DNA of 64,000 bases from NCBI RefSeq assembly GCF_900115395.1, contig NZ_FOWE01000005.1, positions 62,001 to 126,000 of the forward strand, written 5' to 3'. The DNA is from Geodermatophilus obscurus (lineage in GTDB: Bacteria; Actinomycetota; Actinomycetes; Mycobacteriales; Geodermatophilaceae). How positions within the stretch are numbered: position 1 is the first letter of the stretch; each line of letters begins with the position of its first letter. The notes beneath the pieces are model-generated. The model was given only the letters and a program-made list of their open reading frames with translations. It ran no database searches and was not told the DNA's origin. The position numbers and the translations under genes were made by a program. Below are positions 26,654 through 51,449 of the stretch, one piece after another.

Positions 26654-26668
26654 TGCCATTGGGCGGCA
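26654..26668. promoter_or_regulatory. Candidate IclR operator upstream of the FAD-monooxygenase operon
   Basis: TGCCATTGGGCGGCA matches the shared motif TGCCAYYNRRYGGCA. It lies in the 183-nt gap between the esterase gene and the monooxygenase start. The remainder of this gap shows no other clear feature. Confidence 0.6.
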
Positions 26669-26690
26669 GACGGCCCTGAGCCGTCTCGCA

Positions 26691-27611
26691 TCACCCGACC
26701 GGCAGGCGCGCGCGGAGGAAGGCGACGGTGCGGTCGAGGGCATCGGCGGCCGTCTCCGGCGCGCCCAGCCACATGTGGCCGGCGGCGTCGTAGGTGTGCA
26801 GCCCGACGTCGCCGCCCGCCGCCGACAGCGCCGCCGCCAGCCGCTCGCTCTGCACGCAGGGGACCAACCGGTCGGCCCGCCCGTGCAGCAGCAGGAACGG
26901 CGGGGCGCCCGGGCGCACGTGGGTGACCGGGCTCGCCTGGGCGGCCCGCTCCGGCACCGCGGACGGCGCCGCCCCGAGCAGCCGGGCCTCGCGGGTGGTC
27001 GCGTCGGCGGGGTCGGCGCCGGTGTCGACGGCGACCGCGGCGACGTCGCTGGGCGCGTACCAGGCGGCCACCGCGACGACGGCGCTCGACGGTCCGGTCA
27101 CCCCGACGTCGCCCTCCAGCGCCGGGTCGTCGACCAGGCCGAGCAGCTCGGCCAGGTGCCCGCCGGCCGACTCGCCCCACGCGGCGACCCGGTCCGGGTC
27201 GATCCCGAGCTCGCCGGCACGGGCGCGCAGCCACCGGACGGCGGCCTTCGCGTCGGACAGCTGCGCGGGCCAGACCGCCTCGCCGGTGAGCCGGTAGTCG
27301 GCGCTGGCGACGGCGATCCCGGCGGCCGCGGCGCGCTCGAACAGCGTGCGGCCGGGGAAGGCGGGGCCCCCGGAGTGCCGGCTGCCCAGCCGCCAGCCGC
27401 CGCCGTGCAGGAACAGCGCGACCGGGTGCGGGCCCTCGCCGGGCGGCAGGTACAGGTCCAGCTCCAGCGGGCGGACGCCCGGGGTCGCCGCGAACGGGAC
27501 GCCGGCCAGCAGACGCGTGCCGTCCGGGCCGGGCGCGGCCGGGGGCAGCGGGGCGGCGTGGGCCGGCGGCGGGAGCGGCGGGGCGGGCGTGGGCACGGCG
27601 GGGGTGGGCAC
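26691..27611 (-). CDS. Alpha/beta hydrolase, BD-FAE-like esterase
   Basis: 306 residues. A Pro/Ala-rich N-terminus precedes an alpha/beta-hydrolase domain with the oxyanion motif LHGGGW, nucleophile elbow GESAGG and acid/His region LLLHGRADRLVPCVQSE...AAGHMW. These traits fit the acetyl-xylan/feruloyl esterase-like and HSL-like group. It is a close relative of the esterase encoded at 41474-42403. I prefer the GTG at 27611, preceded by AGGAGAGCC. An in-frame GTG at 27623 coincides with the ribosome binding site. It is the second gene behind the cupin and likely deacylates an imported glycoside or a depside-type intermediate. Confidence 0.82.
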   Translation of the reverse strand: MPTPAVPTPAPPLPPPAHAAPLPPAAPGPDGTRLLAGVPFAATPGVRPLELDLYLPPGEGPHPVALFLHGGGWRLGSRHSGGPAFPGRTLFERAAAAGIAVASADYRLTGEAVWPAQLSDAKAAVRWLRARAGELGIDPDRVAAWGESAGGHLAELLGLVDDPALEGDVGVTGPSSAVVAVAAWYAPSDVAAVAVDTGADPADATTREARLLGAAPSAVPERAAQASPVTHVRPGAPPFLLLHGRADRLVPCVQSERLAAALSAAGGDVGLHTYDAAGHMWLGAPETAADALDRTVAFLRARLPVG

Positions 27612-27679
27612 GGCTCTCCTCACGGGACCGGGCGCGGTCCGGAGGGACCGCGCCCGGCGGGGGTGCGACGGCTGCAGGA

Positions 27680-28234
27680 TCAGGCGTCGGGCCAGGTGAA
27701 GTCGCGCATGAACTGCATGTCGTGCTGCTGCGCGGCCGCCTGCATGCGCGGGAAATCGGGGATGAAGGGCGGCTGGTCCTTCGTCGGGTGGTCGGTCGGC
27801 TGGCCCATGTGCTGGAAGAACCGCTCGAAGCCACCGGAGAGGGTGCCCATCATCCGGGCGTCCTCGACGATCTGGTACGCGTGCGCGAACCCGGCCGGCA
27901 CGTAGCCGAAGTCGCCGGGACCGAGCAGCTGCGACTGCTTGACACCCTCGGCGTCCTCGAAGAACAGCCGCACCCGGCCGTCGAGGACGAAGAAGGTCTC
28001 GTGGGTGCCGTTGTGCGAGTGGGTGGGGATGACGTCGCCGGCGGGGGAGTCGCTGACGATGATCCCGAACTGGCCCTGCGTCTCGTCACCGGAGAGCAGC
28101 ACGGTGAACAGGTCGCCGAAGAGCATCGCGTGCTCGCCCTCCCCGCGGCGCAGCACGTAGGGGACCGGCTTGCCCGGCAGCACGCCCTGCCACTGCGGGC
28201 CCCTCTCCGGGTCGATCAGGTACTCGAAGCTCAT
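27680..28234 (-). CDS. Cupin, quercetin 2,3-dioxygenase-like
   Basis: 184 residues with one clear cupin core. Motif 1 is PTHSHNGTHETFFVLDGRVRL, supplying the metal-binding His, His, Glu, and motif 2 is LLGPGDFGYVPAGFAHAYQ. The HETFFVLDG segment is the hallmark shared with bacterial quercetinases (QdoI/YxaG-like). Those are usually bicupins of ~330 residues, so this is a half-length form that may dimerise. Metal-dependent cleavage of a flavonol or another enediol/phenolic compound is a reasonable guess. The ATG at 28234 is preferred over an upstream in-frame start. It is the first gene of a transcript divergent from the DapA-like gene, with an IclR-type site between them. Confidence 0.78.
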   Translation of the reverse strand: MSFEYLIDPERGPQWQGVLPGKPVPYVLRRGEGEHAMLFGDLFTVLLSGDETQGQFGIIVSDSPAGDVIPTHSHNGTHETFFVLDGRVRLFFEDAEGVKQSQLLGPGDFGYVPAGFAHAYQIVEDARMMGTLSGGFERFFQHMGQPTDHPTKDQPPFIPDFPRMQAAAQQHDMQFMRDFTWPDA

Positions 28235-28304
28235 CGGGACTCCCGGTCTGGTCGGCGCTGACCCCCCGAGCATGGGTGACCGCCGTCACGTGCTCCCAGC
28301 ACCG

Positions 28305-28319
28305 TGCCATTGAGCGGCA
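28305..28319. promoter_or_regulatory. Candidate IclR operator in the cupin/DapA divergent promoter
   Basis: TGCCATTGAGCGGCA matches the motif exactly. It lies 71 nt from the cupin start and 61 nt from the DapA-like start, well placed to control both. Confidence 0.62.
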
Positions 28320-28379
28320 ACCAACCTCCGGCGGCGACCAGGCCGGGCCCGCGGGCGTCCGCAGGAGCAGGATGCGGGC

Positions 28380-29141: not shown

Positions 29142-29297
29142 CGACAGCCTCGGGAGCATCGCAGCGAGGAACGAGCGAGGAGCGGACCGAGGCGCGGAGT
29201 CAGGCCATCGGGATCGCTTGACGACAGCCTCGGGAGCATCGCAGCGAGGAACGAGCGAGGAGCGGACCGGGGCGCGGAGTCAGGCCATCGGGATCGC
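29138..29297. repeat. 80-bp tandem duplication between convergent genes
   Basis: Positions 29138-29217 and 29218-29297 are direct copies with a single difference (A at 29190, G at 29270). The first copy includes the stop codon of the DapA-like gene. The second ends 9 nt before the IlvD-type stop. The unit has no hairpin of terminator strength and no obvious coding potential. It looks like a recent slippage or unequal-recombination duplication. Confidence 0.92.
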
Positions 29298-29305
29298 GAC
29301 CGCGC

Positions 29306-31024
29306 TCAGTGCGACTCGCGGCTCACCGCCGACCCGCTCGAGCCGACGAGGAAGTCCAGGTCCGCGCCGGTGTCGGCCTGCAGCACGTGGTCGATGTAGA
29401 GCCGCTCCCAGCCGCGCCGGGGGGCGGCGAAGCCGGCGACGGTCGCCTCGCTCGGCCGGCGCCGGGCCAGCTCGTCGTCCGGCACCTCGACGTCGATCCG
29501 CCGCGCCGCGACGTCCAGCGTGACGACGTCGCCGGTGCGCACCAGGCCCAGCGGGCCGCCGGCGGCCGCCTCCGGCGCCACGTGCAGGACGACGGTGCCG
29601 TAGGCGGTGCCGCTCATCCGGCCGTCGCACACCCGCACCATGTCGCGCACGCCCTGCTCCAGCAGCTTCCGCGGCAGCGGCATGTTCGAGACCTCGGGCA
29701 TGCCGGGGTAGCCCCGCGGGCCGCAGCCGCGGAGGACGAGCACGGAGTCGGCGTCGACGTCGAGGCCGGGGTCGTCGATACGGGCGGAGAAGTCCTCGAT
29801 GGAGTCGAAGACCACCGCCCGGCCGCGGTGCCGCATGAGGTGCGGTGAGGCCGCGGCCGGCTTGACCACCGCGCCGTCGGGGGCGAGGTTGCCGCGCAGG
29901 ACGGCGATGCCGCCGTGCTCGACCAGCGGCTCCGCGCGCGGCCGGATCACCTGCGGGTCCCAGACCGGGGCGTCGTCGAGGGCGTCGACCAGCGGCTCGC
30001 CGGTGACGGTGAGCGCGGTCGGGTCGAGCAGGTCGCGGACCTGGGCCAGCACGGCGAGCAGGCCGCCGGCGCGGTGGAGGTCCTCCATGAGGAACCGCCC
30101 CGCCGGGAGCAGGTCGACGAGCACCGGCACGCCGGAGCCGATGCGGTCGAAGTCGTCGAGCGTCAGGTCGATCCCCAGCCGGCCGGCGATGGCCAGCAGG
30201 TGGACGACGGCGTTGGTCGATCCGCCGACGGCGGCCAGCGCCACGATGGCGTTGGCGAAGGCCCCCGCGGTGAGGAGGGTCGAGGGCCGGCGGTCGGCGG
30301 CCACCATCTCGACCACCAGCCGGCCGGTCCCGTGCGCGGCCTCCAGCAGGCGGCTGTCCGCGGCGGGGATGCCGGCGACCCCGGGGACGACGGTGCCCAG
30401 CGCCTCGGCGACGACCGCCATGGTCGAGGCGGTGCCCATCGTGTTGCAGTGCCCGCGGCTGCGGATCATCGCCGACTCCGACCGCGCGAACTCCTCCGCC
30501 GACAGCGTGCCCGCCCGGACCTCCTCGGAGAGCCGGAAGACGTCGGTGCCGCAGCCCAGCGGCACCCCGCGGAAGGTGCCGGTGAGCATCGGCCCGCCCG
30601 GGACGACGACGGCGGGCAGGTCGACCGAGGCGGCGGCCATGAGCAGCGAGGGGATCGTCTTGTCGCACCCGCCGAGCAGCACCAGCCCGTCGACCGGGTT
30701 GGCCCGGAACGCCTCCTCCATCTGCATCGCGGCCAGGTTGCGCCAGAGCATCGCGGTGGGCCGGACCTGGGTCTCGCCCAGCCCCATCACGGGCAGGTCC
30801 AGCGGGGTGCCGCCCGCGGCGAGGACGCCGTCGCGCACGGCGGCCGCGACCTCGGTGAGGTGGCGGTTGCAGGGCACGAGGTCGGAGGCGGTGTTCGCGA
30901 TGGCGATCTGCGGGCGGCCGAACGCGTCGTCCGGCGCGCCGCGGCGCATCCAGGCGCGGTGGATGTAGGCGTTGCGGACGTCGCCGGAGTACCACTGCGC
31001 GCTGCGGAGGGTCACGGCCGCCAT
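29306..31024 (-). CDS. IlvD/Edd-family dehydratase (sugar-acid dehydratase)
   Basis: 572 residues. Iron-sulphur cluster cysteines appear in SDLVPCNRH, LLGGCDKTIPSLLMAAAS and SRGHCNTMGTASTM. GGSTNAVVHL and RGCGPRGYPGMPEVSNMP are further family markers, and DGRMSGTAYGTVVLHVAPEA lies at the C-terminus. In this family the length and context separate dihydroxyacid dehydratase (IlvD, amino-acid synthesis) from sugar-acid dehydratases such as arabinonate/xylonate dehydratase. The catabolic neighbours and DapA-type partner favour a sugar acid. The ATG at 31024 is used; the longer frame upstream is Arg-rich. It follows an esterase gene by 73 nt in the same transcript. Confidence 0.85.
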   Translation of the reverse strand: MAAVTLRSAQWYSGDVRNAYIHRAWMRRGAPDDAFGRPQIAIANTASDLVPCNRHLTEVAAAVRDGVLAAGGTPLDLPVMGLGETQVRPTAMLWRNLAAMQMEEAFRANPVDGLVLLGGCDKTIPSLLMAAASVDLPAVVVPGGPMLTGTFRGVPLGCGTDVFRLSEEVRAGTLSAEEFARSESAMIRSRGHCNTMGTASTMAVVAEALGTVVPGVAGIPAADSRLLEAAHGTGRLVVEMVAADRRPSTLLTAGAFANAIVALAAVGGSTNAVVHLLAIAGRLGIDLTLDDFDRIGSGVPVLVDLLPAGRFLMEDLHRAGGLLAVLAQVRDLLDPTALTVTGEPLVDALDDAPVWDPQVIRPRAEPLVEHGGIAVLRGNLAPDGAVVKPAAASPHLMRHRGRAVVFDSIEDFSARIDDPGLDVDADSVLVLRGCGPRGYPGMPEVSNMPLPRKLLEQGVRDMVRVCDGRMSGTAYGTVVLHVAPEAAAGGPLGLVRTGDVVTLDVAARRIDVEVPDDELARRRPSEATVAGFAAPRRGWERLYIDHVLQADTGADLDFLVGSSGSAVSRESH

Positions 31025-31097
31025 CCTCGTGCCCGGCCGAGACGGCGGTCCAGCCCGGCGCACCCACCGTGTGGGCCGCCGTCCGCACCGGGCCGGG

Positions 31098-32075
31098 TCA
31101 GCCGGCCGCCGCTCGTCTCCGCCCGGTGCCGAGGACGACGCCGGCCACCAGGTCCAGCGCCGCGTCGACCGGCTCGACGTCATCCGCCGGCAGGTTGAGG
31201 AAGCCGTGCAGCATCCCGGGCACGAGCACCTGCCGGACGTCGACGCCGGCCAGCGCCAGCGCCGCGGTGAACGCCTCGGCCGAGGCGCGCAGGTCGTCGT
31301 ACTCGGCGTTGAGCAGCAGCACCGGGCACAGCCCGTCGAGGACGGCGTTCGCGGGCATCGCGTACCCGTCGGCCCGGCTCTCCGGCCCGCCCAGGTAGTT
31401 GCGCGAGATCGACGCCCGGTCCTCGGGCAGGAAGCGCAGCAGCCGGGGCACCTCGGTCATCAGCGCCGCGAGCGCCGTCGACGGGGCCGGGACGACGGCG
31501 TGCAGGGTCGTGTAGGCGAGCACGAGCGCCGCGGGGACCCAGGCGTCGTCGTCACGGAGCCGCAGCACGGCGCCGGTGGCCAGGTTGCCGCCCGCGCTGG
31601 CGCCTCCGACGGAGATGCGCCCGGGGTCGACGCCGAGCGCGTCGGCCGAGTCGCGGACCCAGCGCACGGCGGCGACGGCGTCGTCGTGGGGGACCGGGTA
31701 GGTGACGCCGCCGACGCAGAGCCGGTAGTCGACGCTCACGACGACCGCGCCGGCCCGCTGGCACACCTGCCGCGCGGTCCAGTCGGCCTCGGGCATGTCG
31801 AGGTCGCCCATGCGGAAGGCGCCACCGTGCAGCCAGACCAAGCAGGGCCGCCCGGTGCCGCCGCCGTCGGGCTCGTACACGCGGACGGGCACGTCGCCGT
31901 GCGGTCCGGGCGCCGACGCCGGCCGGGTCGCGACGGCCGGTGGCGCCGGCGCGCCCGCGATGGACAGGAACGCGTCCAGGCGGGCGCGCTGCTCCGGGTC
32001 GGCGAGCCCCTTCTCGAAGGACTCGATGCCCTCGAGCAGGGGCAGGTTCGCGGCGATGGCGGGGTGGATCGGCAC
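31098..32075 (-). CDS. Alpha/beta hydrolase (hormone-sensitive-lipase family)
   Basis: 325 residues. An N-terminal helical cap (MPIHPAIAANLPLLEGIESFEKG-type) is followed by the HSL oxyanion motif VWLHGGAF, nucleophile elbow GGASAGGNLA, Asp in NAEYDDLR and His in GMLHGFLNLP. It hydrolyses acyl or aryl esters, or small lactones, in the cytoplasm. GTG start with GGAGGAACC directly upstream. Its own IclR-type site lies 66 nt upstream, so it probably starts a transcript with the IlvD-type gene. Confidence 0.85.
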   Translation of the reverse strand: MPIHPAIAANLPLLEGIESFEKGLADPEQRARLDAFLSIAGAPAPPAVATRPASAPGPHGDVPVRVYEPDGGGTGRPCLVWLHGGAFRMGDLDMPEADWTARQVCQRAGAVVVSVDYRLCVGGVTYPVPHDDAVAAVRWVRDSADALGVDPGRISVGGASAGGNLATGAVLRLRDDDAWVPAALVLAYTTLHAVVPAPSTALAALMTEVPRLLRFLPEDRASISRNYLGGPESRADGYAMPANAVLDGLCPVLLLNAEYDDLRASAEAFTAALALAGVDVRQVLVPGMLHGFLNLPADDVEPVDAALDLVAGVVLGTGRRRAAAG

Positions 32076-32140
32076 GGTTCCTCCAGACAGGGGTGAGCCA
32101 GGCCACCCTCGGCAGGTGGACCGCCGTCAGGCCATGCCCG

Positions 32141-32155
32141 TGCCATCAGGCGGCA
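32141..32155. promoter_or_regulatory. Candidate IclR operator upstream of esterase-IlvD operon
   Basis: TGCCATCAGGCGGCA, extended by one flanking pair to GTGCC...GGCAC, matches the shared motif. It lies between the iclR stop and the esterase start, which would let this transcript be controlled apart from iclR. Confidence 0.6.
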
Positions 32156-32160
32156 CGCCG

Positions 32161-32964
32161 CTAGCGCCCGAGCGGCCGCCGGGCGCCGAGCTCGCGGGAG
32201 ATGGCCCGCGCCGCCGTGCGCACCGCCGGACCGAGCAGCCGCGCGTCCGCCCGCTCCTCGGGCACCACCACCGACAGCGCCGCCGCCGGCCGGTCCTGGG
32301 CGTCGAACACGGGAGCGGCGACGGAGACCAGCGGGTTGGGGACCTTGCGGCGGAAGTGGGCCAGCCCCTCCCGGCGGACGTCGGCGAGCGTGCGGCGCAG
32401 CGCCGCCTCCGACACCGGGACCCGCTCTGGCTCGTGCAGCAGCGGCCGGGCGAGGTACTCCTGCTGCACGTCCGGGTCGGCGTAGGCCAGGAGCACCAGC
32501 CCGACGCCGGTGGAGTGCAGGGGCAGCCGGCCGCCGACCTGGTAGAGGACCGGCGTGGCGGCGTGCGCCGACAGCCGCTCGACGAGCACGGCGTCCCCGC
32601 CCTCGCGGACGGCGAGCAGCACGTGCTGGCGGGTGACCTCCTCCAGGTCGCCCATGTACGGCATGGCGACCTGCCGCAGGCCGCGGGCGCGCGGGGCCAG
32701 CGAGGCGACCTCCCACAGCCGCAGGCCCACGGTGAACCGGCCGTCGGCGCCGCGCTCGAGCGCCCCCCACGCCTGTAGCCGCCCGGCCAGGCGCAGCGCC
32801 GAGCTGGTGGGGATGCCGCTGCGCCGGGCGAGCTCGCCGAGGGTCAGCGCGGGGCGGGCGGCGTCGAAGGCGGCCAGCAGGGCGAGGGCCCGGTCCACCA
32901 CCGGGTCGCCCTGCGGCGGCCGGCGGCCGCGGACCCTCGGCGCGGGGGAGGGGACGTCGGTCAC
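32161..32964 (-). CDS. IclR-family transcriptional regulator
   Basis: 267 residues. The N-terminal winged HTH reads VVDRALALLAAFDAARPALTLGELARRSGIPTSSALRLAGRL, typical IclR. The C-terminal effector domain has LVERLSAHAATPVLYQVGGRLPLHSTGVGLVLLA and PNPLVSVAAPVFDAQDRPAAALSVVVP. IclR proteins often sense aromatic or sugar-acid ligands. It diverges from the long ABC-transporter/GH78 operon. Copies of one near-palindrome lie in its promoter and in front of neighbouring catabolic units, so it is the prime candidate to control the 21-54 kb block. GTG start with GGGAGG upstream. Confidence 0.9.
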   Translation of the reverse strand: MTDVPSPAPRVRGRRPPQGDPVVDRALALLAAFDAARPALTLGELARRSGIPTSSALRLAGRLQAWGALERGADGRFTVGLRLWEVASLAPRARGLRQVAMPYMGDLEEVTRQHVLLAVREGGDAVLVERLSAHAATPVLYQVGGRLPLHSTGVGLVLLAYADPDVQQEYLARPLLHEPERVPVSEAALRRTLADVRREGLAHFRRKVPNPLVSVAAPVFDAQDRPAAALSVVVPEERADARLLGPAVRTAARAISRELGARRPLGR

Positions 32965-33011
32965 CCGCCGGTCACCTCCCGGTCACTGATGAGGCCTGCA
33001 CCACACTCGCG

Positions 33012-33026
33012 TTCCATTCAACGGCA
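33012..33026. promoter_or_regulatory. Candidate IclR operator in the iclR/ABC-operon divergent promoter
   Basis: TTCCATTCAACGGCA matches the shared motif TGCCAYYNRRYGGCA with one mismatch. It lies 48 nt from the iclR start and 125 nt before the binding-protein start. The 186-nt region shows no other strong signal. Confidence 0.55.
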
Positions 33027-33150
33027 TCGTGCCTGACGCCACATCCCGGTCGTCCTCATCGTCTACGTCAGCCGGGCCGAGCAGCCCGCACGGCCGCCGG
33101 TCGGCCGTCCAGACCCCTCGCGTCCGTCGAGGATGAGGAGCCAGGACACG

Positions 33151-34740
33151 ATGAACAGAAGCACCCTCTCGTCGCGCCGGACCACGCGACCGCTGCGCGC
33201 CCGCCTCGGTGCGGTGACCCTCGCGCTGGCGACCGCCACCACGCTGGCCGCCTGCGGCGGCAACGGCGGCGGTGGCGGCGCCGGCTCCGCGAGCGCCGAG
33301 GGCACGCTGACCTTCGCCTACGACGCGGACGCGGCCCCGACCGGCTACGACCCGCTGCTGTACTCGCAGGGCCAGTTCACCTTCTTCTCCGCGCTCTACG
33401 ACGCGCTCTTCGTGACCCAGGCCGACGGCACCGTCGCGCCCAGCCTGGTCACCGAGTTCGCCAACGACGCGGAGAACACCCAGACCACGCTGACCCTGCG
33501 CGAGGGCGTCACCTTCACCGACGGCTCGCCGCTGGACGCCGAGCTGGTCAAGGCCAACCTCGACCGCCGCAGCGACCCCGACCTCGAGGCCTACGGCGCC
33601 CTGGCGCCGGGCGGGGCCAGCGAGATCACCGACGTCACGGTGCAGGACCCGCAGACCGTGGTCATCACCTGGGCCCAGCCGCAGGCGCGGCCCGACAGCA
33701 ACCTGGTCGACACCGCCGGCGTCATCGTCGGCCCGGCCGGCATCGCCGACCCGACGTCGCTGGAGACCACGCCGGACGGCTCGGGCGCCTACACGCTCAA
33801 CACCGACGAGACGACGCGGGCGAGCACCTACACGCTCGACAAGAACGACGAGGCGTGGGCCGCCGACGAGTGGACCTACGACACGATCGTCTTCGACGTC
33901 ATCACCGACCCGCAGGCGCTGGCCAACGCGGTCGTGTCCGGCCAGGCCGACGTCGCGACCGTGCTCGACCCGACGACGATCGACCTGGTCGAGGAGCGGC
34001 AGAGCACGGTGAGCGTCGGCGGCACCATCGTCGGCTTCCCCGTGACCGACAAGACCGGCGCGACCAACCCCGCCTTCGCCAGCGAGCAGGCCCGGCTGGC
34101 GATGATCTACGCCACCGACCGCGAGTCGCTCGTCGCCGACCTGCACGACGGGTCGCGCCCGACCTCGCAGCTGTTCCCCGAGAGCGCCCCCGGCTTCGAC
34201 CCGGCGCTGGACGAGGAGTTCGGGTACGACCCCGACCGCGCCCGCGAGCTGCTCGCGGAGGCCGGGTTCCCGGACGGCTTCGACGTGAACTACACGGTGC
34301 TCGGCCAGCCGGAGGAGGACGCCGTCGCCATCCAGAGCCAGTGGGCCGAGGTGGGCATCCGGCTGAACTTCGTCAACGCGACGTCGACCGACCAGGTGTT
34401 CGCCGCGGTGCGGACCGACCCGGTCATCTTCGGCCCCTTCACCGTCGGTGCGAACCCGGCGGGCTTCGTCGCCGGTGTGCTCTACGGCGGCTTCATGAAC
34501 ATGCAGGGCGCGGAGGAGCCGGAGATTGAGGGGTCGCTCGGCGCTGCCCTCGGTGCCACCGGTGACGCCCAGGAGCAGGCGCTGACCGACCTCAACCGGG
34601 CCATCACGGCCAACGGCTGGTTCGTCCCGGTGTACGAGGACTTCGTCTACGCCGGCTACAACGCCGAGTCGGTCGCCGAGCCGTCCTTCGCCGGGACCAA
34701 CGCCTACCTGGTCCTGTCGCAGATCCAGCCGGCCAGCTGA
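33151..34740 (+). CDS. Family 5 solute-binding lipoprotein (peptide/glycoside ABC transporter)
   Basis: 529 residues. The twin-Arg-containing signal peptide ends in the lipobox TLAAC (Cys35), followed by a Gly-rich linker. The mature part matches SBP_bac_5: GTLTFAYDADAAPTGYDPLLYSQ, the TLREGVTFTDGSPLDAELVKANLDR signature, GSGAYTLN and the RLAMIYATDRESLV region. Such proteins bind peptides, but many actinobacterial members bind oligosaccharides or glycosides. It heads an operon with two GH78 rhamnosidases, so a rhamnosylated ligand is likely. The ATG at 33151 with AGGA 4 nt upstream is preferred over an earlier in-frame ATG. Confidence 0.9.
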   Translation: MNRSTLSSRRTTRPLRARLGAVTLALATATTLAACGGNGGGGGAGSASAEGTLTFAYDADAAPTGYDPLLYSQGQFTFFSALYDALFVTQADGTVAPSLVTEFANDAENTQTTLTLREGVTFTDGSPLDAELVKANLDRRSDPDLEAYGALAPGGASEITDVTVQDPQTVVITWAQPQARPDSNLVDTAGVIVGPAGIADPTSLETTPDGSGAYTLNTDETTRASTYTLDKNDEAWAADEWTYDTIVFDVITDPQALANAVVSGQADVATVLDPTTIDLVEERQSTVSVGGTIVGFPVTDKTGATNPAFASEQARLAMIYATDRESLVADLHDGSRPTSQLFPESAPGFDPALDEEFGYDPDRARELLAEAGFPDGFDVNYTVLGQPEEDAVAIQSQWAEVGIRLNFVNATSTDQVFAAVRTDPVIFGPFTVGANPAGFVAGVLYGGFMNMQGAEEPEIEGSLGAALGATGDAQEQALTDLNRAITANGWFVPVYEDFVYAGYNAESVAEPSFAGTNAYLVLSQIQPAS

Positions 34741-34747
34741 GGCCGCC

Positions 34748-34783
34748 GGCCGGTGGCCGCGGACCCCTCTGCGGCCACCGGCC
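34748..34783 (+). terminator. Hairpin after the binding-protein gene
   Basis: GGCCGGTGGCCGC (34748-34760) and its exact complement (34771-34783) form a 13-bp stem with a 10-nt loop and no T-tract. As with the hairpin at 14533, it directly follows a solute-binding-protein gene, suggesting partial termination or mRNA protection. Confidence 0.65.
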
Positions 34784-34829
34784 ACCTCCTCGCCCTCCTG
34801 ACACGGCACCCACGGACAAGGGACCCGAG

Positions 34830-42403: not shown

Positions 42404-45030
42404 GCGACCTGACCGTCGGCGCCGTCACCGTCGAGCACCACCGCGAGCCGCTCGGCATCGGCGAGACGGCACCGCGCCTGTCGTGGGTGACGTCGACCGA
42501 GCTGCCGGACTGGCGGCAGGCCGCCTACGAGGTGGAGGTCGAGCCGGAGGACGGGCCGGCGTGGTCGTCGGGCCGCGTCGACTCCGACACCTCGGTGCTC
42601 GTGCCGTGGGGCGCGCCGCCGCTGACCAGCCGGGAGCGGCGCACCGTCCGCGTCCGCGTGTGGGGCGCCGGCGACGCGCAGCCCTCCGGGTGGAGCGAGG
42701 ACGTCGTCGTCGAGGCGGGGCTGCTCGAGCCCGAGGACTGGACGGCGGTCCTGGTCCGGCCGGTGCTGCCCGAGGGCGAGGAGCCGGCCGTCCTGCTGCG
42801 GCGGGAGTTCACGCTCGACGCCCCGGTCGTCCGCGCCCGGCTGTACGCCACCGCGCAGGGCGTGTTCGAGGCCGAGCTCAACGGCGCGCCCGTCGGCGAC
42901 GAGGTGCTGGCGCCCGGCTGGACCAGCTACCGGCACCGGCTCCGCTACCGCACCCACGACGTCACCGCGCTGCTCTCCGAGGGCGCCAACGCCCTGGGCG
43001 TGCACCTCGCCGACGGCTGGTTCCGCGGCCACCTCGGCTTCACCGGCAAGCGGCACTGGTACGGCGACCGGACCGGGGCGTTCGCGCAGCTGGAGGTCGA
43101 GCACCCCGACGGCTCGCGCACGGTGGTCACCACCGACGGTTCCTGGCGCTCGGCGCCCAGCTGGCTGACCCGCGCCGGCCTCTACTCCGGCGAGACCGCC
43201 GACCTGCGCCGCGAGGTGCCCGGCTGGTCGGCGCCCGGCCTCGACGACGCGGACTGGACGCCGGTCGAGGCCGGCGACCTCGATCTCGCCACGCTCGTGG
43301 CCCCGACCGGCCCGCCGGTGCGACGCACCGAGGTGCTGCCCGCGGTGTCGGTGTCCACCTCACCGTCGGGGAAGGTGCTCGTCGACCTCGGCCAGAACCT
43401 CGTCGGCCGGCTACGGCTGCGCCTGCCCGACGGCCCGGCCGGCACCGAGGTCACCGTCCGGCACGCCGAGGTGCTCGAGCACGGCGAGCTCGGCACCCGC
43501 CCGCTGCGCGCCGCGCGGGCGACCGACGTCGTCGTCCTCGACGGGAACGGCCCGCGCACCTGGGAGCCGCGGTTCACCTTCCACGGCTTCCGGTACGCCG
43601 AGGTGACCGGCTGGTCCGGCGAGCTGACCGCCGACGACCTCGAGGCCGTCGTCCTGCACACCGATCTGCGGCGCACCGGGACGTTCACCTGCTCCGACCC
43701 CGACGTCGAGCGGCTGCACGAGAACGTCGTGTGGGGGATGCGCGGCAACTTCCTCGACATCCCGACCGACTGCCCGCAGCGCGACGAGCGGCTGGGCTGG
43801 ACCGGCGACCTGCAGGTGTTCGCGCCGACCGCGTCGTTCCTCTACGACACCACCGGCATGCTGCGCTCCTGGCTGGCCGACCTGGCCGCCGAGCAGCGGG
43901 AGTTCGACGGCGTCGTCCCGATGTACGTGCCGTTCCTGCCGCTGCTGCCGTTCCCGCAGCAGGCCGAGACCGGCTGGGGCGACGCCGCGGTCGTCGTCCC
44001 CTGGGTGCTGTACCAGCGCACCGGCGACGCCGGGCTGCTCGCCGACCAGTGGGAGTCGATGACCGGCTGGATCGACGCGTTCGCCGCGCGGGCGGGGGAG
44101 GAGCTCGACTTCCCCGGAGGCGGGTTCTCCTTCGGCGACTGGCTCGACACCGCCGCCCCGCCGGACAACCCGGCGGCCGCCCGGACGCCGTGGCAGTGCG
44201 TGGCCACCGCCTACCTGGCCCGCTCGGCACGCACGGTCGCTCAGGCGGCGGAGGTGCTGGGCCGCGACGGCGCGCGGTTCGCCGAGCTGGGGGAGCGGGC
44301 AGCCGCCCGGTTCCGCGCCGAGTACGTCTCCCCGAACGGCCGGGTCGCCTTCCCGTCGCAGACCGCCTACGCCCTGGCCCTGGAGTTCGACCTGCTCGAG
44401 CCGGCGCAGCGCGGGCACGCCGGGCGGCTGCTGGCCGACCAGGTGCTGAAGGACGGGTTCCACATCGCGAGCGGATTCCTGGGCACGCCGCTGGTCACCG
44501 ACGCGCTGACCGGGGCCGGGGAGCTGGCCACCGCCTACGAGCTGCTGCTGCAGCGGGAGAACCCGTCGTGGCTGTACCCGGTGACGATGGGCGCGACGAC
44601 GATCTGGGAGCGCTGGGACTCCATGCTCCCCGACGGGTCGGTCAACCCCGGCGACATGACGTCGTTCAACCACTACGCGCTCGGCGCGGTGGCCGACTGG
44701 CTGCACCGCACGGTCGCCGGCCTGGCCCCGGCCGCGCCGGGCTACCGGCGGCTGCGGGTGGAGCCCCGTCCCGGGCCGGGGCTCACCTCGGCGGCGGCCA
44801 CCCACGAGACGCCGTACGGCACCGCGTCGGTGTCGTGGGCGCTGACCGGCGGGACGGCGTTCGCGCTCGACGTCGTCGTCCCGCCGAACACGACCGCGGA
44901 GGTCGTGCTGCCCGACGGCAGCGCACCGGGAGAGGTCGGCTCCGGCCGGCACGCGTTCACGTGCGAGATCGAGGAGCCCCGCCCGGTGGAGAAGCCGGCG
45001 CTGTTCTTCGACCCGGACGCGCACGCGTGA
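42400..45030 (+). CDS. GH78 alpha-L-rhamnosidase (second copy)
   Basis: 876 residues with the same domain order as the first GH78 protein but clearly diverged. The N-terminal domain begins LTVGAVTVEHHREPLGIGETAPRLSW. The catalytic motif is DCPQRDERLGWTGDLQ (Asp457, Glu463), followed by MGATTIWERWDSM and SFNHYALGAVADWLHR in the barrel. Two non-identical intracellular rhamnosidases suggest different linkages or aglycones (for example rutinoside versus neohesperidoside, or aryl-linked). GTGA overlaps at both ends. No signal peptide. Confidence 0.93.
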   Translation: MSDLTVGAVTVEHHREPLGIGETAPRLSWVTSTELPDWRQAAYEVEVEPEDGPAWSSGRVDSDTSVLVPWGAPPLTSRERRTVRVRVWGAGDAQPSGWSEDVVVEAGLLEPEDWTAVLVRPVLPEGEEPAVLLRREFTLDAPVVRARLYATAQGVFEAELNGAPVGDEVLAPGWTSYRHRLRYRTHDVTALLSEGANALGVHLADGWFRGHLGFTGKRHWYGDRTGAFAQLEVEHPDGSRTVVTTDGSWRSAPSWLTRAGLYSGETADLRREVPGWSAPGLDDADWTPVEAGDLDLATLVAPTGPPVRRTEVLPAVSVSTSPSGKVLVDLGQNLVGRLRLRLPDGPAGTEVTVRHAEVLEHGELGTRPLRAARATDVVVLDGNGPRTWEPRFTFHGFRYAEVTGWSGELTADDLEAVVLHTDLRRTGTFTCSDPDVERLHENVVWGMRGNFLDIPTDCPQRDERLGWTGDLQVFAPTASFLYDTTGMLRSWLADLAAEQREFDGVVPMYVPFLPLLPFPQQAETGWGDAAVVVPWVLYQRTGDAGLLADQWESMTGWIDAFAARAGEELDFPGGGFSFGDWLDTAAPPDNPAAARTPWQCVATAYLARSARTVAQAAEVLGRDGARFAELGERAAARFRAEYVSPNGRVAFPSQTAYALALEFDLLEPAQRGHAGRLLADQVLKDGFHIASGFLGTPLVTDALTGAGELATAYELLLQRENPSWLYPVTMGATTIWERWDSMLPDGSVNPGDMTSFNHYALGAVADWLHRTVAGLAPAAPGYRRLRVEPRPGPGLTSAAATHETPYGTASVSWALTGGTAFALDVVVPPNTTAEVVLPDGSAPGEVGSGRHAFTCEIEEPRPVEKPALFFDPDAHA

Positions 45031-46499
45031 CCCCGCGCCCCGTCGTCCCCGGCTTCCACCCCGACCCGAGCGTGGTCCGGGTCGGCGACACGTACTGGTT
45101 GGTGCACTCGAGCTTCGAGTACGCCCCCGGCGTCCCGCTGTACCGCTCGACCGACCTGGTGACGTGGGAGCAGGCCGGGCACGTGCTGGCCCGGCCCTCG
45201 CAGCTCGACTTGTCGGCCGCGCCCGGGTCGGGCGGGATCACCGCGCCGACGATCCGCCACCACGACGGCCGGTTCTGGATGGTCACCACCAACCTCGCCG
45301 ACGGCGGCTGGCAGGTGCTCGTCTCGGCCGAGGACCCGCTCGGGGAGTGGTCGGACCCGCTGCGGATGACCGGCGTGCGCGGCATCGACCCCGACCTCGC
45401 CTGGGACGACGACGGCACGCTGCTGGTCAGCTACGCCGGCTTCGGCGCAGGCGGCCCGGCCGGGCTCGTGCAGCAGGCCGTCGACCCGGTCACCGGCGCC
45501 GCGCTCACCGGGCGGCGGCCGCTGTGGCAGGGCACCGGCGGGCGGTTCCCCGAGGGGCCGCACCTCTACCGGGTGGGCGACCTCTGGTACCTGCTCATCG
45601 CCGAGGGCGGCACCGAGCGCGGGCACGCGGTGACCATCGCGCGCGGGCCGTCGCCGGCCGGGCCGTTCGAGCCGTGCCCGTCCAACCCGCTGCTCACCCA
45701 CCGCGGCGTCGAGTCGCCGGTGCAGAACACCGGCCACGCCGACCTGGTGCAGCGGCCCGACGGCAGCTGGGCGGTCGTCTTCCACGGCGTGCGCCCGCGC
45801 GGCGCCAGCCCGCAGTTCCACGTCCTCGGCCGGGAGACCTTCGCCGCCGAGGTCGAGTGGGTCGACGGCTGGCCGCGGCTGGGGGAGTGGCTGACCCCGC
45901 CGGACGGCACCGTCGAGGTCGCCGACGACCTCTCCGGCCCCGCGTGGGTCGCGCCCCGGCGGTTCCCCGGCGAGCTGCTGACCCAGGTGGAGGGCGGCTG
46001 GCGGCTGACCGCGGCCGACCCCGACCCCGCGTCGGAGGACCTCGCGTTCGTGGGCCGCCGCCAGGAGCACGAGGACGCCCGCTTCCGTGCCGTCGTGCGG
46101 GCCTCCGACGGGGTCGGCGGGCTGTCCCTGCGCATCGACGCCCGGCACCACCTCGACCTCGAGGTCGACGGCGACCGCGTCCGCGCCGTCGCCCAGGTCG
46201 GCGCGCTGCGCTCCGTGCTCGGCGAGGCGGAGGTCGCCCCCGGGGACGTGACCCTCGAGATCCGCACGCTCCCCGGCGAGGGGCACTTCTCCTCGACGGC
46301 GCTCGCCCCCGACGTCCTGGTGGCCGGCCTCGTCGGTGTGGGCGGGTTCGCCGAGCTGGGCCGCCTCGACGGGCGCTACGTCTCCACCGAGGTCGCCGGC
46401 GGCATGACCGGACGGCTCGGCGGCGTCTGGTGCGCGCGCGGCGAACTGCACGTCCGCTCGACCACCTACCGCGGCGCCGACGACCCGGCCGCCGCCTGA
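45027..46499 (+). CDS. GH43-family beta-xylosidase / alpha-L-arabinofuranosidase
   Basis: 490 residues. The five-bladed propeller domain has the catalytic base Asp in VVPGFHPDPSVV, the pKa-modulating Asp in IDPDLAWDDDG and the acid Glu in GGRFPEGPHLY. From about residue 310 a C-terminal concanavalin-like domain follows, as in xylosidase-type GH43 proteins. No signal peptide. It would clip xylose or arabinose from imported glycosides. It overlaps the second GH78 gene by 4 nt. Confidence 0.9.
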   Translation: MTPRPVVPGFHPDPSVVRVGDTYWLVHSSFEYAPGVPLYRSTDLVTWEQAGHVLARPSQLDLSAAPGSGGITAPTIRHHDGRFWMVTTNLADGGWQVLVSAEDPLGEWSDPLRMTGVRGIDPDLAWDDDGTLLVSYAGFGAGGPAGLVQQAVDPVTGAALTGRRPLWQGTGGRFPEGPHLYRVGDLWYLLIAEGGTERGHAVTIARGPSPAGPFEPCPSNPLLTHRGVESPVQNTGHADLVQRPDGSWAVVFHGVRPRGASPQFHVLGRETFAAEVEWVDGWPRLGEWLTPPDGTVEVADDLSGPAWVAPRRFPGELLTQVEGGWRLTAADPDPASEDLAFVGRRQEHEDARFRAVVRASDGVGGLSLRIDARHHLDLEVDGDRVRAVAQVGALRSVLGEAEVAPGDVTLEIRTLPGEGHFSSTALAPDVLVAGLVGVGGFAELGRLDGRYVSTEVAGGMTGRLGGVWCARGELHVRSTTYRGADDPAAA

Positions 46500-46513
46500 C
46501 TCCGGAGGAACGC

Positions 46514-47380
46514 GTGTCCCTGCGCATCACACGACGCTGCCGCGTCGTCGTCGACAACGACTGGGCCGGTGACCCGGACGGCCTGGTCGCCCTCGCCCAC
46601 CACCTGCTCAGCCCCGCCAACCGGGTGGACGCGGTGACCAGCTCGCACTTGAACCCGGTGTTCGGGCCACCCGAGGGCACCGCGGAGAGAGGCGCCCGGT
46701 TCGCCCAGGAGCTGGTGGACCTGGTCGGCGGCCCCCGGCCGGCGGTCGCCGCCGGCTGCGACGTGGTCCTGGACGCAGGCGACACCCGCTCGGCCGCGGC
46801 GGACCTCATCGTCGCCGAGGCCCGGCGGGACGACCCGTTGCCGCTGCTGCTCGTCTGCGCCGGGCCGCTCACCAACGTCGCCCAGGCACTGCGGCAGGCG
46901 CCGGAGATCGCGCAGCGGCTGACGCTGGTCTGGGTCGGCGGGGCACTGGACCCGGCCGCCTTCGAGTACAACCGGGAGACCGACGCCGAGGCAGCCCGTG
47001 AGGTGCTGGCCCGCACCGACCTCGCCGTCTCCCAGTTCCCGCTGGAGACCTACCGGCGGTGCGAGTACTCCGTCGCCGAACTGGAGCAGGACCTGGGTGG
47101 GGCGGGCCGGGTGGGGGCGTGGCTGTGGCAGCGGTACGTCGAGCTGCCGATCCCCTACTTCGTGGAGCAGGGGGAGACCTGGCCGCTCGGCGACAGCCCG
47201 CCGTTGCTGCTGACCGCCCTCAGCGATGCCACCAGCGCGTGGACCGAGACCGCGTCCGCGCCCGGGGGTGCGTCCCGCCGCGTGTACGTCGACGTCGACG
47301 TCCGGCTGCTGGTCGCCGACCTCTACGCCAAACTGCGCCGGCACGAGCGGCAGGCGGTCGGGGCCTCGGGGCCGGTGTGA
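46514..47380 (+). CDS. Nucleoside-hydrolase-family protein
   Basis: 288 residues of the inosine-uridine nucleoside hydrolase fold. The Ca-binding N-terminal motif, normally DTDPGIDDA, reads DNDWAGDPDG here, keeping the aspartate spacing but losing the Pro-Gly. LVCAGPLTNVAQAL and LVWVGGALDP are conserved family strands, and EYNRETDAEAAREVL matches the NxxxDPEAA-type segment. It presumably hydrolyses N- or O-ribosidic bonds, but its place at the end of the glycosidase operon and its variant motif suggest a specialised glycoside. GTG start with GGAGGAA 4 nt upstream. Confidence 0.83.
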   Translation: MSLRITRRCRVVVDNDWAGDPDGLVALAHHLLSPANRVDAVTSSHLNPVFGPPEGTAERGARFAQELVDLVGGPRPAVAAGCDVVLDAGDTRSAAADLIVAEARRDDPLPLLLVCAGPLTNVAQALRQAPEIAQRLTLVWVGGALDPAAFEYNRETDAEAAREVLARTDLAVSQFPLETYRRCEYSVAELEQDLGGAGRVGAWLWQRYVELPIPYFVEQGETWPLGDSPPLLLTALSDATSAWTETASAPGGASRRVYVDVDVRLLVADLYAKLRRHERQAVGASGPV

Positions 47381-47389
47381 CCGGTGACC

Positions 47390-47411: not shown

Positions 47412-47417
47412 CACGGG

Positions 47418-48170: not shown

Positions 48171-48213
48171 GTCCGCAGTCTGTCCCGCGCCCCCCGGGGC
48201 ACCGGCACCCGTC

Positions 48214-48228
48214 TGCCAACCACCGGCA
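48214..48228. promoter_or_regulatory. Weaker IclR-type operator candidate in the SDR/GH2 divergent region
   Basis: TGCCAACCACCGGCA keeps the TGCCA...GGCA ends and spacing of the shared motif but mismatches at two inner positions. It lies 44 nt from the SDR start and 170 nt before the GH2 start. Confidence 0.4.
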
Positions 48229-48248
48229 CGCCGCTGTCCGTCGCATGC

Positions 48249-48272
48249 GCGCCTCGTCGAAGATCGAGGCGC
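48249..48272. repeat. Inverted repeat in the SDR/GH2 intergenic region
   Basis: GCGCCTCG and CGAGGCGC form 8-bp arms around an 8-nt centre. It could be a regulator site or a leader hairpin. The rest of the ~227-nt region shows no gene. Confidence 0.4.
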
Positions 48273-48397
48273 GGGCTCCAGCGGCGACCCAGCGGACGGC
48301 CGGTCGCCCCGACGCCGGACCCGCGTGGGCATGGGGCGCTCCAGCCAGGACGCCATCCGTCGCGTGCTGCCTCTTCGTCCCCGATGACAGGACAGCC

Positions 48398-50809
48398 ATG
48401 CGCCGCATCCCGTTCACGACCGGCTGGCAGACCCGCCGGCACGCCAACTCCTTCGCCGAGATGGTCGGCGCCGCGGCGCCCTGGCGGGACGTGACCCTGC
48501 CGCACGACGCGACCCTGGGTGAGACCCGCGACCCCGTCCACGGCGCCGGCCGCGGCTACTTCCCCGGCGGCGTGTACGAGTACCGGGCGACGCTCCCCGC
48601 GCCCGCGGAGTACGCCGACCGCCGCGTCCTGCTCGAGTTCGAGGGCGTCTACCGGCGAGCGACGGTCTCCGTGAACGGCGCCCTGGCCGGCCACTGGGCG
48701 TCGGGCTACACCGGCTTCGCCGTGCCGCTCGACGACGTCCTCCGGTACGGCGAGGACAACGAGGTGCGGGTCGTGTGCCGGTCCGCCGAGGACTCCCGCT
48801 GGTACGCCGGCGCCGGGATCCACCGGCCGGTGCACCTCGTCGTCGGCGACCTGCTGCACGTGGCGCTCGACGGCGTCCGCGTCACCACCGAGGACGTCGA
48901 CGCCGACCTCGCCGTGATCGAGGTCGTGACGACCGTGGAGAACGACCGGCCGCGGCTGGCCACCGTCGAGGCGGTCACCGAGGTCCGCGACGCCGCCGGC
49001 GCGGTCGTCGCCACCGACCGGGCGCCGGTCACCGTGCGGCCCGGTGAGCCGGCGGTCGTGCGCCAGCGCCTCGTCGTCCGCGAGCCCGTCCTGTGGGGTC
49101 CCGGCTCGTCGGCCCTGTACACCGCCACGGTGCAGCTCCGCGACGGCGACGCGGTCGTCGACGACGGGACGGCGACCTTCGGCATCCGGACGATCTCGGT
49201 CGACCCGGTGCGCGGCCTGCGCGTCAACGGCGAGAAGGTGCACCTGCGCGGGGCCTGCGTGCACTCCGACAACGGCGTCCTCGGCTCGGCCACCATCGAC
49301 CGCTCCGACGAGCGGCGGGTGGAGCTGCTGCAGGCGGCCGGCTTCAACGCCCTGCGCAGCGCCCACAACCCGATGAGCCGGGCGATGCTCGAGGCCTGCG
49401 ACCGGCTCGGCGTCCTGGTGATGGACGAGCTGAGCGACGTGTGGACCGAGAGCAAGTCCGATTTCGACGCCGCACTGGACTTCCCCGAGTGGTGGCAGCG
49501 CGACGTCGCCGCGATGGTGCGCAAGGACGCCAACCACCCCAGCGTGGTCATGTACTCGATCGGCAACGAGATCCCCGAGCTCGCCACCCCGCAGGGCGCG
49601 CTGTGGTCCCGGCGGCTGGCCGAGGAGGTGCGCCGCCTCGACCCGACCCGGCTCGTGACCAACGGCGTCAACGGGATGCTCGCCGTCATCGGGGAGGCCA
49701 GGGCCGGCGCCGAGGCCGGGGGCGGCATCAACACGATGCTGTCGGACATGGGCGGCTTCATGCGGGAGCTGTCCGGGTCGGAGCTGGTCGGCCGGCGGAC
49801 GGCGGAGTCCTTCGCGGTGCTCGACGTGGCCGGCCTGAACTACATGGACGCCCGCTACGAGGCCGACCGTCAGGTCTTCCCGAACCGCGTCGTCGTGGGC
49901 AGCGAGACCTTCCCGGCCGACATCGACCGGCTGTGGCCGCTGGTCCGCGACAACCCGCACGTGATCGGCGACTTCACCTGGACCGGCTGGGACTACCTCG
50001 GCGAGGTGGGCATCGGCCGGGTCGCCGACGTCGAGGACCCGACCGCCCGCCAGCTCAACGGCCCGTACCCGTGGCTGCTCGCCCACGTCGGCGACATCGA
50101 CGTCACGGGGCACCGGCGGCCGGCGTCCTACCACCGCGAGATCGTCTTCGGCCTCCGGCGCGACCCCTACGTCGCGGTGCTGCGGCCGGAGCGCTCCGGC
50201 CGGGAGACCGTGTCGACGCCGTGGGCCTGGAGCGACACCGTCGGCAGCTGGGCCTTCCCCTCCGGGACCGAGGGGACGCCGCTGACGGTCGAGGTCTCCA
50301 GCGACGCCGAGGAGGTCGAGCTGCTGCTCGACGGCGAGTCACTGGGCACCGCGAAGGCGGGGGAGGCCAACCGGTTCCGGTCGGAGTTCACGGTGACCTG
50401 GGCGCCCGGCGAGCTCACCGCCGTCGCCCGCACCGGCGGGGAGGAGACGGGCCGGTTCTCGCTGCGGGCGGCGGAGGGACCGGTCGCGCTGGCCGCCGTC
50501 GCCGACCGCGGGGTCATCCGGGCCGACGGCACCGACCTCGCGTACGTGGACCTGGCGCTGCAGGACGCCGCCGGCACCGTGGCGCTCGGCGTCGACCGCG
50601 AGGTCACCGTCACCGTCGAGGGACCCGGCGTGCTCGCCGGGTTCGGTAGCGCGGCACCGGCGACCGAGGAGTCCTACCTCGACGAGGTGCACACCACGTT
50701 CGACGGCCGCGCGCTCGCCGTCGTCCGCCCCACCGGCCCGGGGACCATCACCCTCACCGCCTCGGCGCCGGGCTGCGGGCGCGTGACCGCGACCGTCGAG
50801 GCGCGCTGA
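48398..50809 (+). CDS. GH2 beta-galactosidase-type glycoside hydrolase with C-terminal Ig-like domains
   Basis: 803 residues: sugar-binding jelly roll, immunoglobulin-like domain, TIM barrel with acid/base Glu391 in SIGNEIPE and nucleophile Glu503 in VVGSETFPA, then DUF4982-like and invasin/Ig-like C-terminal domains (EVELLLDGESLG, DLAYVDLALQDAAG). This is the larger beta-galactosidase/mannosidase-like GH2 subgroup, distinct from the compact beta-glucuronidase encoded at 59076. The ATG has CAGGACAG just upstream. No signal peptide. It likely trims galactose or a related residue from imported glycans or glycosides. Confidence 0.9.
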   Translation: MRRIPFTTGWQTRRHANSFAEMVGAAAPWRDVTLPHDATLGETRDPVHGAGRGYFPGGVYEYRATLPAPAEYADRRVLLEFEGVYRRATVSVNGALAGHWASGYTGFAVPLDDVLRYGEDNEVRVVCRSAEDSRWYAGAGIHRPVHLVVGDLLHVALDGVRVTTEDVDADLAVIEVVTTVENDRPRLATVEAVTEVRDAAGAVVATDRAPVTVRPGEPAVVRQRLVVREPVLWGPGSSALYTATVQLRDGDAVVDDGTATFGIRTISVDPVRGLRVNGEKVHLRGACVHSDNGVLGSATIDRSDERRVELLQAAGFNALRSAHNPMSRAMLEACDRLGVLVMDELSDVWTESKSDFDAALDFPEWWQRDVAAMVRKDANHPSVVMYSIGNEIPELATPQGALWSRRLAEEVRRLDPTRLVTNGVNGMLAVIGEARAGAEAGGGINTMLSDMGGFMRELSGSELVGRRTAESFAVLDVAGLNYMDARYEADRQVFPNRVVVGSETFPADIDRLWPLVRDNPHVIGDFTWTGWDYLGEVGIGRVADVEDPTARQLNGPYPWLLAHVGDIDVTGHRRPASYHREIVFGLRRDPYVAVLRPERSGRETVSTPWAWSDTVGSWAFPSGTEGTPLTVEVSSDAEEVELLLDGESLGTAKAGEANRFRSEFTVTWAPGELTAVARTGGEETGRFSLRAAEGPVALAAVADRGVIRADGTDLAYVDLALQDAAGTVALGVDREVTVTVEGPGVLAGFGSAAPATEESYLDEVHTTFDGRALAVVRPTGPGTITLTASAPGCGRVTATVEAR

Positions 50810-50832
50810 CCGGGCTCCTCTACGGTGCCGGC

Positions 50833-51425
50833 ATGACGGACGGGGAGCTGCGCGTGCAGCCGTGGCACGCCGGCGCGTGGACGACCGCCCCCGCCGCCGT
50901 CGCCGAGGACGGGCCGGACGTGGTGGTGACCGCCGTCGAGGGCAGCGACGCGTGGCGGCACACCGCCTACGGGTTCGTGCACGACGACGCGCACGCGCTC
51001 CTCGCCCCGTTGGCGTCCCCGGGCGCGGTCGAGGTGACGTTCGACGTTGGGTGGGACGGGCAGTTCGACCAGGCCGGGTGGTGCTGCGGGCCGACGAGCA
51101 GACCTGGCTCAAGGCCGGTGTGGAGATGACCGACGGCGCCGCCCACGTCGGCGCCGTCGTCACGCTGGGCCGCTCGGACTGGTCGCTGGCACCGGTGCCG
51201 GAGTGGGCCGGCCGCCGGGTCACCGTCCGGGCCAGCCGTGCCGGGGACGCGGTCACCGTCCGCGCGCGGGTCGACGACGAGGCGTTCCGGCTGGTCCGGG
51301 TCGCGTCCTTCCCGCCGCACCCCGCGGTGCGGGCCGGGCCCTATTGCTGCGCACCCACCCGCAGTGGCCTCGTCGTGCGTTTCCGGCGGTGGGCGGTCGG
51401 CCCGGCGGACGCCGCGCTGCACTGA
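50833..51425 (+). pseudogene. DUF1349-family protein, split by a 1-nt frameshift
   Basis: Read in one frame from the ATG the protein starts MTDGELRVQPWHAGAWTTAP and continues through DVGWDGQFDQAG. The family continuation VVLRADEQTWLKAGVEMTDG appears in the next frame. Adding one base to the GGG at 51076-51078 would restore a single ~197-codon gene ending at 51425. DUF1349 proteins are ~200-residue concanavalin-like beta-sandwiches, often linked to GH2/GH43 enzymes. Either the gene is recently inactivated or this is a homopolymer sequencing error. It lies 23 nt behind the GH2 gene. Confidence 0.8.
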
Positions 51426-51430
51426 GCGGC

Positions 51431-51449
51431 GCTGCCACTGGATGGCAGC
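51431..51449. promoter_or_regulatory. Candidate IclR operator upstream of the GH3 gene
   Basis: The core TGCCACTGGATGGCA (51433-51447) matches the shared motif. With flanks it gives GCTGCCA...TGGCAGC, perfect 7-bp arms and the most symmetric copy in the window. It lies about 40 nt before the GH3 start, so GH3 may have its own promoter. Confidence 0.62.

Follow-up and report, generated by a model that had tools for sequence, protein, structure and literature searches.

The window, by which I mean the whole stretch of 64,000 nucleotides of Geodermatophilus obscurus DNA analysed here, contains six copies of a 15-bp near-palindrome set among genes for glycoside hydrolases, esterases, oxygenases, an ABC transporter and an IclR-family regulator, and 20 of these genes were grouped into six units by strand and short gaps (Table 1). 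The original prediction had placed TGCCAYYNRRYGGCA without mismatch at 26654, 28305, 32141 and 51433, with one mismatch at 33012 and with two at 48214, always in intergenic DNA, and the positions, the mismatches and, by the gene calls of this analysis, the intergenic placement were all borne out. It had also described each site as lying upstream of a transcription unit, and this is right for the six units and their 20 genes, whereas dapA and iclR, which it named beside them, are off the spacing described below and an SDR gene shows a spacing of 31; the site at 32141 does lie upstream of the esterase/IlvD pair as proposed, and is located past the 3' end of iclR.

Table 1. Operators, predicted -10 hexamers and genes of the candidate regulon, in positions of the window.
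Feature	Position	Strand	Remarks
FMO-unit operator	26654..26668	-	exact match; G002 counterpart at 14581, TGCCATTGACCGGCA
FMO predicted -10 hexamer GATGCT	26618..26623	-	30 bases past operator
Cupin-EstA operator	28305..28319	-	exact match; aligned in 20 cupin upstream regions including the window
Cupin-unit predicted -10 hexamer CATGCT	28269..28274	-	30 bases past operator
Second dyad GTGAC-N4-GTCAC	28276..28289	.	15 bases from cupin operator, between operator and -10
EstB-IlvD operator	32141..32155	-	exact match; counterparts in other loci
EstB predicted -10 hexamer GAGGGT	32105..32110	-	30 bases past operator
Operator between iclR and ABC-GH78-GH43 operon	33012..33026	+	one mismatch; iclR upstream alignment
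ABC-operon predicted -10 hexamer CATCGT	33057..33062	+	30 bases past operator
Weak GH2-DUF1349 operator	48214..48228	+	two mismatches; same place in G002 is TGCCATCCACCGGCA
GH2 predicted -10 hexamer GAAGAT	48259..48264	+	30 bases past operator
GH3 operator	51433..51447	+	exact on both strands; counterparts in G002, G003, G008
GH3 predicted -10 hexamer CAGGAT	51478..51483	+	30 bases past operator; may alternatively be a ribosome-binding site
FMO unit	21581..26507	-	FAD monooxygenase (FMO) 24873-26507, GH1 23681-24850, FAH 22827-23681, DUF3500 21581-22837
Cupin unit	26691..28234	-	cupin 27680-28234 (QueD-like), esterase EstA 26691-27611
EstB unit	29306..32075	-	EstB 31098-32075, IlvD/Edd-type dehydratase 29306-31024
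iclR	32161..32964	-	IclR-family regulator, 267 aa; Pfam HTH_IclR and IclR_C
ABC operon	33133..47380	+	ABC transporter (binding protein, permeases, ATPases), two GH78, EstC, GH43, nucleoside-hydrolase-like protein
GH2 unit	48398..51425	+	GH2 48398-50809, DUF1349 50833-51425 (frame broken here)
GH3	51487..53736	+	domain search

Both domains of the regulator score over cut-off (HTH_IclR 48.3 bits, IclR_C 100.8 bits) and, in a scan that excluded the small open reading frames 1515-1877 and 63579-63926, they occur in this one protein only, in agreement with the claim that it is the sole IclR of the window; against TIGR02431, the PcaR/PcaU/PobR subfamily, it gives 115.8 bits and does not reach the cut-off of 284.75. 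The monooxygenase of the FMO unit is an FAD aromatic hydroxylase, over cut-off for PRK06126, and the closest solved relatives of the cupin are quercetinases, with 2h0v as the top match (E 2.5e-42) and QueD, 5fli, at E 8.2e-39. Cupin residues H72, H74, E79 and H118 align with the QueD metal ligands H69, H71, E76 and H115, as these are given in the accessible part of PMC4416304, and the pattern HxH-x4-E with a later His is present in 20/20 cupin sequences, window included; by sequence alignment the cupin thus has the three-His one-Glu metal site of the QueD type. Compared with two relatives in which it is open, the DUF1349 gene has one base missing and runs out of frame, possibly an error of the draft assembly.

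How far the motif stands above chance depends on how strictly it is written. In the window, exact TGCCAYYNRRYGGCA is matched 5 times at 4 places when both strands are counted, whereas 100 shuffles of the window yielded 0.03 matches on average and never more than 1; in the 4.96 Mb genome it is found at 7 places, of which the window accounts for 4, and its reversed control at 0. Allowing up to 3 mismatches leaves no excess in the window (109 found vs 107.35 expected), so that the signal is confined to the strict form. TKCCRYYNRRYGGMA, the symmetric form, is matched exactly at 11 places in the genome, including 5 in the window, and with one mismatch allowed it is rarer in the genome than its reversed control (156 vs 208). 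The statement that no site lies inside coding sequence is correct for the strict sites of the window and does not extend to the genome, where the symmetric form has 6 other exact matches, 4 of them in called genes. None of these six has a hexamer at the operator spacing, and one of the matches, C22:131731, is intergenic and adjoins efflux and transglycosylase genes. With one mismatch allowed, TGCCATYNRVYGGCA finds all six window sites and 24 further places in the genome (counted from 33 rows of matches); together with 14 more, the 24 from this one scan make up 38 look-alike places, and coding scores are negative at all six window sites vs 13 of these 38.

The original prediction proposed looking for the sites upstream of orthologous clusters, and they do occur at the corresponding promoters of 20 other loci, which span six genera; these loci are related and were retrieved via IclR, so that they are not independent and their link to iclR exists partly by construction. 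Within the genus, the IclR orthologs besides that of the window have 94, 93, 89, 88, 76 and 75% identity to it (the last being a fragment), and G015, with an IclR of 65% identity, was rejected as a holder of the cluster, since the 60 kb read there showed no such cluster or exact site. Sites 14581, 16224, 19918, 20848, 36138 and 39356 of G002 correspond, in order, to the six of the window, and because the G002 copy is the better one at the place matching 48214, this weak site is real. Across 26 genus genomes TGCCATTGASCGGCA is found at 16 places, all on contigs with an iclR ortholog or a piece of one, and it is present in 7/7 genomes with an IclR ortholog of at least 75% identity, window included, vs 0/19 of the others; on this co-occurrence, and on the recurrence of the sites beside iclR orthologs, the proposed IclR regulon of about 20 genes stands as a candidate. 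A scan of one genome per species returned 23 loci, of which 5 repeat genus genomes already in the comparison, L076-L078 (43-50% identity) have iclR as the sole cluster gene found, L079, with a partial iclR, is on a second contig of Pseudonocardia nigra, and the remaining 14 add ortholog loci of Blastococcus, Klenkia, Modestobacter, P. nigra, Nonomuraea dietziae and one Geodermatophilaceae member. Sites with a score of at least 13.5, by a matrix built from the sites of several of the compared genomes, are present in 14/14 of these new loci, and the operator is prominent in an alignment of 20 cupin upstream regions, window included. In several loci there are also matches scoring 14.2 within DUF3500 genes, and these matches are unlikely to be operators.

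The signature of a -10 element is nAnnnT, and in the window it stands exactly 30 bases past the operator in 6/6 promoters and in one direction only, the opposite directions at these sites having it at offset 30 in 0/6; when each promoter was shifted at random in 200,000 trials, there were never more than 4 hexamers at one offset. The SDR direction at 48214 has no hexamer at 29 or 30 and has one at 31, both in the window and in G002, and because of this the one-sidedness at 48214 is not clean. Among the 20 further loci, 70 of 71 site-to-target directions have nAnnnT at 29 or 30 (57 at offset 30, 13 at 29), in a count that left out sites scoring <14.5 and sites in genes found by tblastn, and in which the trials are not independent, the loci being related and the matrix built from the sites of some of them. 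The single miss, in a Blastococcus MAG, is at a second operator located 112 bases from one that has its hexamer, and the other directions of the same loci have a hexamer in 2/89, both without any query gene on that side. Both L079 and L080 have CATCGT at 30, and the P. nigra copy L063 has CACCGC at that position, without the T, and no transporter gene found adjoining; P. nigra has its two iclR copies on different contigs (L063 and L079), with the transporter operon beside the partial one. At site 40846 of G014, where the ABC operon is absent beside iclR, the operator is kept and that side no longer has a spaced hexamer, which is what one would predict for a hexamer that was part of the lost operon.

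The targets by this spacing would be FMO, cupin, EstB, the ABC operon, GH2 and GH3, and the spacing suggests which of two divergent genes is the target, something that a motif scan alone does not do. Two candidates were rejected by the spacing as like targets, dapA and iclR, neither of which has nAnnnT at the spacing in the window or, in 0/6 DapA and 0/19 IclR directions, at 29/30 elsewhere. At GH3 (window 51478-51490) the hexamer ends 4-7 bases ahead of candidate GTG starts, so that the GH3 transcript may be leaderless; alternatively, the hexamer may in truth be a ribosome-binding site. Among the look-alike places elsewhere in the genome, 2/38 have a hexamer at 29 or 30, where about 2 of 38 are expected by chance (hand arithmetic, 12% A and 12% T), and for this reason the regulon looks confined to the cluster at the stringency used; of the two places with a hexamer, L087 has a coding-like score and L088 lies, as read by eye, between TetR-like and ABC-transporter reading frames. 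That the six sites are merely chance matches in GC-rich DNA agrees with the relaxed count, equal to expectation, and with a one-mismatch symmetric form no commoner than its reversed control, yet it is contradicted by the strict count, the conservation and the spacing, and I regard it as scarcely credible.

With nAnnnT taken as the -10, its A at -11 and its T at -7, the centre of the operator falls near -50, and a search for TTGACA at spacers of 15-20 in the six window promoters found no consensus -35, the best match being 4/6 at the ABC operon and at most 3 at the other five. From sequence, then, the promoters combine a fixed operator-to--10 distance with the absence of a consensus -35, as activator-dependent promoters do, and a fixed-distance upstream operator with a poor -35 would be what an activator needs; the regulon is likely activated rather than repressed. 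An IclR dimer at about -57 to -43 would sit beside RNA polymerase and compensate for the poor -35, turned on by an aromatic ligand, either a flavonol or an acid derived from it. The same protein might instead repress from the same sites and be released by its ligand, as many IclR proteins are repressors and, in the available text of PMC9582017, the IclR-type CatR and PcaR repress beta-ketoadipate branches in Rhodococcus opacus, but a repressor would here have an operator that keeps a fixed distance and lies upstream of the -35 region, on promoters that have no good -35, and I consider this unlikely.

The original prediction had described iclR as carrying a site in its own promoter; the 33012 site is indeed upstream of it, although iclR has no operator-spaced -10. 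Just upstream of the 33012 operator, towards iclR, GTCAGGCACAATGCC or a close variant is kept in most of 20 aligned iclR upstream regions, and its CACAAT (CACGAT in the window) is possibly the iclR -10, in which case the operator, following this hexamer in the iclR direction, could let iclR be autorepressed through the very same site.

Could a different protein be responsible? LacI, DeoR and further regulators are present in the window and one of them, for example a LacI-type protein, might bind the sites, yet the sites flank iclR and recur beside iclR orthologs, the LacI encoded at 57934-59028 has only matches of about 35% identity near them, and the dyad resembles IclR group 1 operators as PMC8222616 presents them in the part available, all of which makes another regulator improbable. 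Compared by eye with the group 1 consensus quoted in that source, GKTYCRYW3-4RYGRAMC, the window dyad agrees in the YCRY/RYGR cores and the odd spacing, and in most half-sites the outer position is G instead of the consensus T. A PobR-like group of IclR paralogs (L016-L025, L030, L057), 46-50% identical to the window IclR, is also present in the genus, and its member in the window genome adjoins an FAD monooxygenase gene. Like the window, this group combines a 15-bp dyad with a fixed hexamer spacing, CACACT following in 12/12 of the loci read; unlike the window, its half-sites are TCCC or TTCC, its offset is 32, not 30, and its recognition helix is another one. The recognition-helix residues compared, which contact DNA in TtgV and PobR (PMC8222616, part of the text), are kept among the IclR orthologs and differ in the paralog group, and the differences at contact positions appear in line with the TCCC/TTCC half-sites. 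A fixed operator-to-hexamer spacing may be common to the IclR proteins of this lineage.

Taking operators, spacing and gene content together, I propose that through its six operators the IclR of the cluster likely activates the six units, 20 genes in all, predicted to serve the import and breakdown of rhamnosylated flavonols, and I put the probability of this at roughly two in three. The substrate is predicted from the company of a quercetinase-like cupin with GH78, GH1, the monooxygenase, DUF3500 and FAH, which points to flavonol glycosides, a theme that the original prediction had left unnamed. In such a route the ABC transporter would take up the glycosides, the two GH78 enzymes and the one GH1 would remove rhamnose and glucose from rutin-like molecules, the QueD-like cupin would open the flavonol ring, EstA would cleave the depside (ester) left by the quercetinase step, the protocatechuate would be handled by pca-type dioxygenases encoded in another part of the genome, and FMO, DUF3500 and FAH would act on the A-ring acid. 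Protocatechuate-dioxygenase-type genes are present outside the cluster, at G000:C8:107793-108946, and DUF3500 has been proposed, in the part of PMC12388069 available, as a 1,2,3,5-tetrahydroxybenzene dioxygenase in Aspergillus nidulans. IclR control could also be right and the substrate other, such as an arabinose- and rhamnose-rich cell-wall polysaccharide with aromatic esters, for which GH43, GH2, GH3, three esterases and a sugar-acid dehydratase are all within the regulon; since, however, the units most widely kept across genera are the cupin, EstA, FMO, FAH, DUF3500 and the ABC-GH78 set, and since the solved proteins nearest to the cupin are quercetinases, such a substrate is a distinctly weaker candidate than flavonol glycosides. 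A more ambitious version of the flavonol proposal, which I offer tentatively and with more doubt than belief, is that one IclR activator, through operators near -50 on promoters without a -35, would control a complete aerobic flavonol-glycoside route in which EstA splits the quercetinase product, FMO converts the trihydroxybenzoate half to 1,2,3,5-tetrahydroxybenzene and DUF3500 is the ring-opening dioxygenase, which would supply both the missing queD-type regulator and a bacterial role for DUF3500.

Acinetobacter PobR and PcaU are IclR-family activators of aromatic genes, and in Rhodococcus opacus HbaR1 and VanR1 are IclR-type activators of their own aromatic pathways (PMC9582017). The window resembles these four systems in its IclR domains, in a local regulon for aromatic catabolism and in activation, here predicted, whereas it differs from them in its half-sites, in the six units spread over 25 kb and in targets that include glycosidases and a quercetinase-like cupin; regulators of the family usually act on one or two neighbouring operons (PMC8222616). 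The cupin, like QueD of Streptomyces sp. FLA, is a single-cupin protein of similar length with the metal ligands kept, and unlike QueD, whose regulatory mechanism was called elusive in the accessible text of a 2015 paper (PMC4416304), it comes with a proposed regulator and operator. Bacillus subtilis YxaG, the top sequence match of the cupin, shares the dedicated control of a quercetinase and differs in being a two-cupin protein with regulators of another family. These YxaG regulators are TetR-type. A literature search found no paper on this regulon and, as far as that search shows, the kind of system is known while the regulon, the operator variant, the fixed spacing and the link to a quercetinase are new. 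What the locus would provide is a promoter code open to testing, in which a 15-bp operator is followed after 30 bases by the -10, together with a candidate regulator for actinobacterial quercetinase-type genes, a possible explanation of how genes of the queD type come to be induced, and a tie between the uncharacterised DUF3500 and a predicted aromatic A-ring branch.

The cupin promoter has a further element, the second dyad of Table 1, which agrees with the consensus GTG(N)6GNCAC given for Crp of Streptomyces coelicolor in PMC10033298. GTGAC-N4-GTCAC occurs at 13 places in the genome vs 1 for the reversed control, a looser GTGA-N6-TCAC is present in 18/20 cupin regions, window included, and with its centre near -20 the dyad would suit a repressor.

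Two neighbouring groups of genes may also be mentioned. At 264-6691 of the window a LacI gene is followed by genes for a RhaA/xylose-isomerase-like protein, an aldolase-dehydrogenase fusion and an FGGY kinase; the arrangement resembles an operon for the use of rhamnose, which would suit the rhamnosidases in the vicinity. Near a LacI gene, at 56711-58000 and 61669-63521, lie genes for LarA-like, AIR-carboxylase-domain and nickel-insertion proteins, possibly a nickel-pincer racemase set.
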